The position numbers and the translations under genes are program-made. The notes below the pieces were generated by a model, which saw nothing but the letters and a program-made list of their open reading frames with translations, was not told the DNA's origin and did not search any database. Shown here piece after piece: positions 60,910-64,000 of a stretch of 64,000 bases of DNA (the first letter of the stretch is position 1; every line of letters begins with the position of its first letter). This DNA comes from Alphaproteobacteria bacterium (lineage in GTDB: Bacteria > Pseudomonadota > Alphaproteobacteria > Reyranellales > Reyranellaceae), in the NCBI GenBank assembly GCA_016870115.1, contig VGCH01000005.1:124001-188000 (forward strand), given 5' to 3'.

Positions 60910-61386
60910 CTACCGCCCGGGCATCCGGTCGAACCAGAAGCCGATCTGCTGCTGGAAGTCGTTCTCGGCGAAGCCGCGATCGGTGATCAGCAAGGCGCGG
61001 CCGCCGCGCGGCAGGCTGACGCTCGACAGCCGAGCGAAGCGGCTGTCGGAATGATGGAAGGTAAGGCGGTCGCCTTGCCGGCGATGGAACACGAACTCGT
61101 CGATCTGGCGCACCCGCAGCAGGCTCACGACGTAGCGTCCGTCCGGGCCGTCTTCGGCGAGCTGCTTGGCCGGCACGTCGCGGCCCGGTGGAGCGAGTCC
61201 CATGACGGTGAGCGCGTCAGGGGCCATTTGGGTGTTGCGGCCGCTATTGCCAATCCAACGGATGAGGCGCTCCGTTCGGGTCGACACCGTGACGCTGCGG
61301 CGCGACCCGAACAAATCCGACATCTGGCTGCAGGCGCCGAGTGGCAGCGTGGCAAACGCCGCCAGGATGACGCGCCTTCCGATCAA
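60910..61386 (-). CDS. Small lipoprotein coupled to hisI
   Basis: A 158-residue protein read from TTG at 61386, which overlaps the hisI stop as TTGA, with GGGAG about nine bases upstream. The N-terminus ([19 protein letters not shown]) is a lipoprotein signal. The mature part has no domain I recognise; it contains [22 protein letters not shown] and ends [22 protein letters not shown]. No better start exists upstream, because that part is antisense or inside hisI. Confidence 0.55.
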
Positions 61387-61802
61387 GCGCGGTGGCTCCC
61401 ATCGGGCGGCGCGATCACGGGCAGGATCGTCTCGAGCACCCCGCCTCGCACGGCACGGAAAAAGCAATTGTGCCGGCCGGTGTGGCAAGCCGCGCCGGTC
61501 TGGCGGACTTCGACCAGCAGCGTATCGCCATCGCAATCAACCCGCAGATCGACAAGATCCTGGACATGCCCCGAGGTCTCGCCTTTGCGCCACAGCGCGC
61601 CCCGAGACCGCGACCAGTAGCAGACGCGGCCGGTGCGCATGGTTTCAACCAGAGCATCGCGGTTCATCCACGCCATCATCAGCACTTCGCCCGTCCCCGA
61701 CTGTTGCGCGATAGCCGGCACCAGGCCCTTGGCGTCGAAGATCACCGCCGCAAGCACAGCCTCGATTTCCTTGTCTGCATAGATCGTCGCGGGTTCCTGC
61801 AT
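61383..61802 (-). CDS. hisI: Phosphoribosyl-AMP cyclohydrolase
   Basis: A 139-residue HisI performing the third step of histidine synthesis. WRKGETSGH (71-79), zinc-binding Cys90 (DCDGD), Cys106 and Cys113 (CHTGRHNC) fit the known zinc and magnesium sites. It is a stand-alone HisI (no HisE fusion), and other his genes are not adjacent. Confidence 0.95.
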
Positions 61803-61872: not shown

Positions 61873-62220
61873 ATGCGCGAGCCGCGGGCTACAGCCGGAA
61901 ACATCGGGGCATCGGGACGTCGCAATCTGATCTGGGGCAGCGCCGCGCTGCTCGCTGGCACCGCCGCATTGGCAGCGCGGCCTGGTCGGGCCTTCAGCAT
62001 CGTGGACGCCGACGCCCGCACTCAGGCCGCGTTCCACGACGCCTGTGGTGCCGTGCAGATGCACACCGATCTCGTCGCCGAAGCACGGGCGGAACTGACC
62101 CGCCGGGGCATGGCACCCGCCGAGATCGACGCCGCGCTGCCGATTGCCTGCCCGACCTGCGGTTGCCGTCTCGCCCTCGCCGGCGGTGCGGTGAACGGCG
62201 CTCCCGGCGCGGAACGCTGA
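61873..62220 (+). CDS. Small Tat-type secreted protein with CxxCxC motif
   Basis: A 115-residue protein. The N-terminus SGRRNLIWGSAALLAGTAALAA looks like a twin-arginine signal peptide. The C-terminal part has an IACPTCGCRLAL motif, a possible metal or heme-type Cys cluster, preceded by a short helical stretch (RTQAAFHDACGAVQMHTDLVAEARAEL). It is directly upstream of zur with two bases between, so it may be co-transcribed and metal-related. No family is recognised. Confidence 0.6.
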   Translation: MREPRATAGNIGASGRRNLIWGSAALLAGTAALAARPGRAFSIVDADARTQAAFHDACGAVQMHTDLVAEARAELTRRGMAPAEIDAALPIACPTCGCRLALAGGAVNGAPGAER

Positions 62221-62222
62221 TC

Positions 62223-62714
62223 GTGGGAGCGCGCGCGCGCCAACCGTCCAAACCTAGTCACAGCCACAATCACGAGCTATGCGTCGAGGATGCGCTCGCC
62301 GCCGCCGAACGGGTGTGCAGCGATCGTGGCCTGCGCTTCACGCCGCTGCGCCGGCGCGTGCTTGAGCTGATCTGGTCCGACCATAAACCTGTCGGTGCCT
62401 ACTCGTTGCTTGACCGCCTGCGAGAGGAAGAGCTCGGCTCGGCGCCGCCCACGGTCTATCGCGCGCTCGATTTCCTGATCGAGAATGGACTTGTCCACCG
62501 CATCGAGCGGATGAACGCTTTCATCGGCTGCACCCACCCCGGCGAAGCCCACCGCGGCATATTCCTGATCTGCACCGTTTGCGGGAGTGCCGCCGAACTC
62601 GACGACAAGGGCGCAGTCGACGGCCTTGTAGAGGGCGCTGCTCGCAAGGGCTTTTCGGCTCGCGAGATGACCGTTGAAATCACCGGCAACTGCCTGTCGT
62701 GTAGCCGAAACTAA
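62223..62714 (+). CDS. zur: Fur-family zinc uptake regulator
   Basis: A 163-residue Fur-family repressor read from GTG 62223, the only credible start in frame after the previous stop. It has a His-rich N-terminus (SHSHNHELC), a winged helix with LRRRVLELI and TVYRALDFLIENGLV, the metal-sensing region IGCTHPGEAHRGIFLICTVCG with Cys117/Cys120, and a last pair Cys157/Cys160 (NCLSC). The features fit Zur rather than Fur. A decayed second copy lies downstream at 63696-64000. Confidence 0.85.
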   Translation: MGARARQPSKPSHSHNHELCVEDALAAAERVCSDRGLRFTPLRRRVLELIWSDHKPVGAYSLLDRLREEELGSAPPTVYRALDFLIENGLVHRIERMNAFIGCTHPGEAHRGIFLICTVCGSAAELDDKGAVDGLVEGAARKGFSAREMTVEITGNCLSCSRN

Positions 62715-62789
62715 CGTAGCGTCGTCAGAGCTTGGGGCGACCTGCTCCAGCCGTCGCAATTGGCAAGACGATCCCGGCGCAGGAGCCGA

Positions 62790-63527
62790 TCACGAGGCCC
62801 AGCGATGATCAGACCTCACAGGTGAATTTTCGGGCACGAAAGCGACGTCCATCTGAGCCAATGCATTGTCGAGCGGCCGCCTCAAGAGGCCTGTGACATC
62901 GAACAGCACGAAGCCCGCTTCATGCATCGAAGAAAAAAGCTCGGCGAACTCCGGGCCGCCGCGTATGGTAGCGATCGTGCTGGTCTCGACCAGGAGGCAG
63001 TCGATCTCCCCCCGCAGGCGATCGCCCATGCCCTTGATCACCATGATCTCGGCGCCCTGCACGTCGATTTTCGCAAACGCTGGCCGCTGGAACGCCGGCA
63101 TGACCTTGTCGAAGCGCGCGACGGGAACCTCACGCTCCTCGACGACATCGGTCTGACCGACCTCCTCGAAAATCGTCGAATCCGAATGATGTGGTCTGAT
63201 CTTGAGCCTCACCGAGCCCTCGGTGTCGCCCAACGCAATGTTGAAGACCTGTGCATCGAGCCGCTGGGCTATGGCCTGCATATGGGGCATCGACTGGGGG
63301 GTAGGGTCGAACAGGAAGTACTTGGCGTGCGGATAGGCGTCATAGAGCCATGGCGTGCCCGATGCGACGCCAATATCGACAACCGTCTTTGGCGTGAGCC
63401 CGGCTCTGTCGAGGTGACCAACCAGCCGACCGAACGACGGAAAGTGGCCTTCGAAGTCAATTTGATGGCCGGTCCATTTGAGGGCGTAGTTGGCTCCTCG
63501 CTTTAACTTTCCAAGAAGTGAGGTCAT
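62790..63527 (-). CDS. FkbM-family methyltransferase
   Basis: A 245-residue SAM methyltransferase of the FkbM group starting at MTSLLGKLKRG (ATG 63527 with GGGGAA upstream). Motif I is VVDIGVASGTPWLYDAY, then FLFDPTPQSM and the FAKIDVQGAEIMVIKGM motif typical of the family. Such enzymes often methylate sugars of surface polysaccharides. Its base composition is visibly less GC-rich than its neighbours, and it sits between zur and the zur remnant, suggesting insertion or duplication. Confidence 0.85.
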   Translation of the reverse strand: MTSLLGKLKRGANYALKWTGHQIDFEGHFPSFGRLVGHLDRAGLTPKTVVDIGVASGTPWLYDAYPHAKYFLFDPTPQSMPHMQAIAQRLDAQVFNIALGDTEGSVRLKIRPHHSDSTIFEEVGQTDVVEEREVPVARFDKVMPAFQRPAFAKIDVQGAEIMVIKGMGDRLRGEIDCLLVETSTIATIRGGPEFAELFSSMHEAGFVLFDVTGLLRRPLDNALAQMDVAFVPENSPVRSDHRWAS

Positions 63528-63695
63528 CTGAGATTCCCCAGGGAGTCGAAAGCTTAAGAGGCGGCCGTTAAGCAGCAGTAGATCGTCGTTCGTGCGCGCC
63601 GAACGTATCAGCGACATGACGCACGGACTGATCTTCGTCAACCAAGCGCAAGGTAAGGGCGAGTTGCTGGGGCTTAAACTCGAGTTTCGGCTTGC

Positions 63696-64000
63696 GGCCT
63701 GCGCTTCACCCCTCTGCGCCGGCGCGTTCTTTAGCTGATTTAGTCGATCACAGGCCGGGCGGCGCCTATTCGCTGCTCGACCGTCCGCATGAGGATGAAC
63801 TTGGCGCGGCTCCGCCGACGGTGCACCGCGCGATCGATCTCCTGATCGAAAACGGGCTGATTCACCGCATCGAGTGGATGAATGCTTTCGTCGGCTGCGC
63901 CCACTCGGGAGAATCCCATCGTGGCATGTTTCTGATCTGCACAGTGTGCCGCCCGCGCCATGATTGTCGAAATCACGGGCACCTGCTAACCTGTAGCCGA
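63696..64000 (+). pseudogene. Decayed second copy of zur, running off the window
   Basis: From GGCCTGCGCTTCACC (63696) the sequence aligns with the intact zur gene at 62330-62710. The opening GLRFTPLRRRVL is conserved, then TAG stops at two positions and a one-base deletion break the frame. The frame resumes as GAYSLLDR, then PTVHRAIDLLIENGLIHRIE and FLICTVC, still clearly Zur. After that about 60 bases of the intact gene are missing, and the rest ends in an altered form of the CxxC end. A real pseudogene of zur. Confidence 0.88.

Follow-up and report, generated by a model that had tools for sequence, protein, structure and literature searches.

A decayed second zur allele behind an intact Zur-like regulator gene and an fkbM gene in a Reyranellaceae genome: a candidate scar of allelic replacement

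Gene content of the locus

The window, that is, the whole stretch of 64,000 bases that was analysed, corresponds to bases 124001-188000 of contig 5 of a genome of 3.56 Mb in 59 contigs, and the contig extends 9.66 kb beyond the window end. The gene order at the right window end is hisI (-), a small gene (+), zur (+), fkbM (-) and a broken zur copy, which bears out the order proposed in an earlier note made from the sequence alone, both by domain matches and by alignment. The conserved left neighbour is hisI, encoding phosphoribosyl-AMP cyclohydrolase (61383..61802, minus strand). It is followed by a small gene on the plus strand (61873..62220; 115 aa, with a CPTCGC motif), for which neither Pfam nor NCBIfam gave a match. 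This gene lies directly before the intact zur (62223..62714, plus strand), with two bases between its stop and the GTG start of zur. The 3' flank of zur, common to the remnant, occupies 62715..62756 on the plus strand (35 of its bases at 80% identity) and is followed by the gene for an FkbM-family methyltransferase on the minus strand (62790..63527). Upstream of fkbM are 168 bases (63528..63695) in which zur homology was not detectable, with a G+C content of 56% as measured over 63528-63694. The zur remnant, homologous from codon 36 on and interrupted by stops, deletions and frameshifts, then fills the plus strand of 63696..64000 and continues 49 bases beyond the window. Past the window lie a MipA-like gene (+), metC (-) (the name used here for a gene of the cystathionine beta-lyase type), to which zur is convergent, and a gene run common to the relatives; further right are tRNA-Asn, tRNA-Cys and a phage-type integrase gene near the contig end. 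A promoter scan of the stretch found none, and one terminator-like site was found against 1.6 expected.

Genes like the small CPTCGC-motif gene matched in all five genomes of groups g2, g5 and g6 and in none of eight g3 genomes. In the three genomes of g2, g5 and g6 that are shown, such a gene is the longest open frame before zur, and it is absent there in the shown genomes of g3 (five) and g4 (one).

Identity of the intact regulator gene

The product of the intact gene has a FUR domain by Pfam (PF01475, positions 2-120 of 121, 36.3 bits against a cut-off of 23.1, E 6.9e-9). Its best NCBIfam match is Zur (NF008646, 2e-34, 118.8 bits), which tops the eight NCBIfam families listed for it, the next one scoring 28.5 bits. 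The best PDB matches were 7dh7 (1.8e-39, deposited as a Fur-family regulator) and 4mtd (E. coli Zur, 2.5e-29), and the CTVC and CLSC motifs align with the CxxC pairs of both structures, which we take to be the structural zinc site of Fur-family proteins. The protein is thus matched to these zinc uptake regulators over nearly its whole length, but it scores under the curated NCBIfam Zur cut-off of 167 and was therefore called Zur-like. Two ZnuA-family genes are present in this genome, and zinc-dependent repression of znu genes is a putative function of the predicted regulator.

Another Fur-family, Zur-like gene was seen on contig 55 of the same genome (4.6 kb; L121 759-1301), with 42% identity to zur over residues 26-106 and 34% over residues 105-162. 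It adjoins an integrase-core (transposase-like) gene.

The decayed zur copy

Homology of the remnant to zur begins at 63696, corresponding to zur codon 36, and runs through the zur stop and about 42 bases of the zur 3' flank, ending 49 bases beyond the window (L003 4049), where the earlier note had advised looking for the rest. In a protein search against its own genome the remnant matched zur residues 48-123 at 72% identity (E 1.6e-33), far beyond chance. The first 35 codons are missing, and the remaining part carries two in-frame TAG stops, an in-frame TAA near the C-terminus, two 1-base deletions, the second of them also near the C-terminus, and a net loss of 74 bases (84 to 10). The two TAG stops and one of the deletions had been recognised before; the TAA and the second deletion had been missed, and the missing stretch, rightly noticed, had been put at about 60 bases. 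With its start lost and its frame broken by several lesions, the copy qualifies as a pseudogene by its sequence and has presumably lost its function; its reading as a decayed zur copy is well supported. It is equally well supported that a second, formerly working zur allele stood beside the first.

To the left of 63696, homology to the zur 5' region was not found: 35% of 500 shuffles gave a local alignment of equal quality. At the junction, the remnant matches zur exactly over its first 14 bases. It lacks its 5' end and keeps its own 3' flank, behind which the mipA-like gene follows. A 24-base pattern from this flank occurs in the whole genome only at the two zur copies and is thus not a dispersed repeat in this genome; the shared flank showed no more stable folding than its shuffled versions (z from -0.97 to 0.13). 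Assembly error at the contig end, raised earlier as an explanation, did not show and is disfavoured, as the contig continues for 9.66 kb and the two copies are only 79.6% identical.

Divergence of the two copies

The identity of 79.6% between the remnant and the intact zur was measured over 289 aligned bases, with 12 differences in 97 first, 8 in 96 second and 39 in 96 third codon positions. Over 93 codons, dN was 0.104 and dS 0.859, so that the copies are separated as deeply in dS as the intact gene is from four g3 genomes (0.57-0.78). In a tree with 34 other genomes the remnant was sister to the intact zur with an ultrafast bootstrap of 100. When the differences were placed with a g3 reference as outgroup, 9, 7 and 13 differences (positions 1, 2 and 3) were assigned to the remnant and 2, 0 and 8 to the intact gene, while 1, 1 and 18 were left unplaced. 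Branch lengths for positions 1+2 and position 3 were 0.264 and 1.02 for the remnant and 0.005 and 0.595 for the intact gene; the ratio of the two for the remnant had a median of 0.24 with a wide interval of 0.07-0.90 (100 bootstraps).

The timing of the decay was simulated. Under neutrality from the start, none of the 300 runs made at each of five depths gave 20 or fewer differences at positions 1+2, which disfavours decay from the moment of duplication. Without a neutral phase, 95%, 60%, 22%, 4% and 0% of the runs stayed within this number at depths of 0.3, 0.4, 0.5, 0.6 and 0.8, and the number of third-position differences observed, 39, falls between the means for 0.3 and 0.4 (36.8 and 41.8). 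At these two depths the fraction was 39% and 4% when a tenth of the branch was neutral, and 7% and 0% when a fifth was; once the neutral share reached a third or more, it did not exceed 0.7%. The simulation is simple, as all third positions are taken as neutral, and it fits at shallower depths only; as far as this model goes, the two copies parted long ago and the decay is recent. The codon-position pattern and the simulation together support that two alleles diverged for long as working genes and that one of them broke late.

The FkbM-family gene

The domain assignment of the interposed gene is over cut-off in both databases (PF05050, 3.4e-14, 53.8 bits against 22.7; TIGR01444, 67 against 37.7). 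Its G+C content is 59.3% compared with 66.1% for the stretch of 73.7 kb, within the lowest 0.9% of windows of the same size, and the earlier description of the gene as less GC-rich thus holds. The proposed check of G+C and codon usage for 62790-63527 gave no foreign mark beyond this low value: G+C at third positions is ordinary (0.732 against 0.758, sd 0.082), and so is codon usage, at the 45th percentile of 58 open frames. A foreign origin by codon usage was rejected on this native-like value.

The protein is 46-51% identical to those of 15 relatives, 14 of the family and one of a sister family, while the g3 and g4 members are 48-61% identical among themselves. In an unrooted tree it places outside the g3 and the g4/g6 groups; a foreign origin read from this tree was withdrawn, as vertical descent beside g3 would give the same place. 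Since zur and metC are nearest to g3, vertical inheritance should have left fkbM closer to g3 than was found, and the distance from the family's own FkbM proteins may hint at foreign origin or fast change. A search for a near donor across 385 sampled genomes of the class returned only three others passing E 1e-50, at 49-51% identity, and the six matches among plasmid records were all under 30%. Whether fkbM is foreign matters for how the cargo is read and only slightly for how replacement is weighed against a paralogue below.

zur loci in related genomes

The family set comprised 75 genomes including this one, the comparison genomes belonging to other genera, and a zur match at E 1e-15 was found in 73 of them. 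The survey covered 72 loci from 71 genomes, one of them from a sister family and the others being 70 of the 74 relatives within the family; G072 and G085, which had no match, and G012 and G013 were left out. Each surveyed locus had exactly one zur hit above 50% identity. Second matches were found in six relatives, always on another contig, at 31-40% identity in five and at 65% in G070. The last was tried as a second two-copy relative and rejected: its pieces lie on two contig ends that overlap by 255 bases at 99.6%, and were read as a broken contig. Two intact close copies in relatives, which would have spoken against the earlier proposal, were thus not seen in the 72 loci, of which the gap between zur and metC was whole in 54; in the other 18 metC was not reached, some having few bases behind zur, and a remnant could be missed there.

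The gap between zur and metC is a variable, tolerant spot, in which relatives carry 0 to 8 kb of differing genes. Among the 54 loci it measures up to 100 bases in 21, 101-600 in 15 and more than 600 in 18, with a maximum of 8078; in four more (G018, G019, G024, G027) it is 1133-1329 bases. A gene of the MR/MLE enolase superfamily is near zur in 13 loci by tblastn (two confirmed by Pfam), a GNAT gene was found in G004, and larger gene sets in G020, G064 and G091. When 21 loci were searched for zur repeats in the gap, a gene-length repeat was found in this genome only, the other 20 having no zur coding repeat longer than 37 bases. The zur 3' flank was seen repeated in the gap of G020 (L093; 69 bases at 94%) and, inverted, in that of G064 (L151; 61 bases at 97%); these are possibly dispersed repeats helping insertions there.

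An FkbM-family gene is located directly behind zur on the other strand in G061 (L149 7628-8365; confirmed by Pfam) and at the same place in G063 (L150). As it is only 28% identical to the FkbM protein of the window, cargo of this kind probably arrived at the spot separately. Nearer relatives (47-50%) were observed in G021 (L089) and G023 (L087), about 12 kb downstream of zur and beyond metC, on the strand opposite to zur as in the window.

A search by related loci for a genome of the same genus returned two loci only, at 52% and 43%, and among the compared genomes of other genera neither a donor nor an unreplaced locus was seen. Both zur and metC are nearer to g3 than to other genera, with average identities over eight genomes of 66.8% and 79%, and zur thus lies nearest to g3 as its neighbours do. 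The neighbours, with sseA left aside, have identities of 66.7-83.8% to g3, a span that takes in the value for zur, and thus nothing marks the intact zur as imported.

Allelic replacement and its alternatives

The earlier note had left open a duplication or an allelic replacement. A decayed second allele is well supported, whereas the codon-position pattern speaks against a plain duplication whose second copy decayed at once, and favours either allelic replacement or a long-kept paralogue. We consider it about an even bet that the scar at this locus stems from an allelic replacement, in which a related zur allele was recombined in together with fkbM and cut off the older allele. Two alleles of common origin, both with the 3' flank of their ancestor, diverged as working genes, as the codon-position pattern supports, presumably in two related lineages, and DNA of the other lineage carrying zur, flank and fkbM would then have recombined into the chromosome. 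The left join may have formed by homology in or before zur and the right one by end-joining near codon 36 of the resident gene. The incoming zur would have taken its place behind the small upstream gene, and the resident allele, deprived of its start, would have gathered stops, deletions and frameshifts, lesions that are present in the remnant and whose order is our reconstruction. From the layout, the broken copy would be the older resident, and the arrival of fkbM with the new allele fits that layout.

Such a replacement finds support in the sister relation of the copies, the codon-position pattern, the retained flank, the single zur of the relatives and the variable gap, and a single event would account at once for the loss of the 5' end, for the flank and neighbour that the remnant still has, for the arrival of fkbM and for how far the copies have diverged. 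The same signals also fit a paralogue that was long kept and lost lately: zur and its flank would have been duplicated in tandem soon after the split from g3, both copies would have worked for long, and an fkbM insertion or a deletion would have removed the 5' end of the second copy before it decayed. The sister relation, the shared flank and selection on both copies for most of the time agree with this course. It needs duplication, long keeping, truncation and fkbM insertion, however, and long keeping of two tandem zur genes was seen in no relative (one hit in each of 72 loci, gap whole in 54), so that we regard it as possible but rather doubtful. A simple tandem duplication in which one copy was useless and decaying from the start would also leave a broken copy beside an intact one, and the upper bootstrap bound of 0.90 is near the neutral value, but the bias among codon positions and the absence of any fitting run among the 300 simulations at each of five depths make it highly improbable.

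Phages that integrate into icd leave an icd 3' fragment behind and bring their own 3' part of the gene. By analogy, an integrative element with its site inside zur could have brought its own 3' part, making the intact zur a mosaic of old 5' and new 3' sequence and the remnant the displaced 3' part. As with icd, a 3' part of the gene, here with flank, is left at the far end of the insert with many silent differences, and the identity of the first 14 junction bases suits such an origin. Unlike those phages, the zur insert holds only fkbM between the copies, with no integrase-like frame recognised; the pattern is not repeated in the 20 other loci, where no zur coding repeat exceeds 37 bases, and the integrase gene that was found sits about 7.6 kb further on, beside tRNA-Cys. 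This origin is unlikely.

Xenologous gene displacement in place can leave a remnant of the displaced gene. The preferred reading, allelic replacement, shares with it the pairing of a decayed allele with a divergent working one, in conserved surroundings; it differs in that here the displacement is deduced from the layout of the locus, with a donor not found among the compared genomes and the direction itself deduced. To go by the excerpt of PMC3240628, homology-facilitated illegitimate recombination, with one end joined by homology and the other without it, could produce such joins, giving this layout together with a gain of genes, whereas the present locus is known from the sequence of one genome of its genus. 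In the titles and opening lines of abstracts covered by a literature search, nothing was recognised as such a zur locus.

Allelic replacement is an event of a known, ordinary kind and changes no general view. How a bacterium may exchange one allele of a regulator for another can be read from this locus, where the traces lie together. It also draws attention to the stretch between zur and metC as a variable insertion spot in the family, which may interest those who map such spots. A bolder and quite improbable extension is that this gap serves as an exchange spot, where recombination in zur would exchange whole units of zur, flank and cargo among lineages and bring in, time after time, genes for surface modification such as those of FkbM methyltransferases; if true, a housekeeping regulator would serve as a homology arm for cargo exchange.

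Genes to the right of the remnant

The MipA-like gene on the plus strand past the window (PF06629, 1.7e-45) has relatives of 54-71% identity in many genomes of the family, and a MipA hit was found in none of the 72 zur loci, from which we infer that it moved to this locus. Near the contig end, the phage-type integrase gene (L003 11609-12742, C5 about 195.6-196.7 kb) adjoins tRNA-Cys and perhaps marks the edge of a genomic island.
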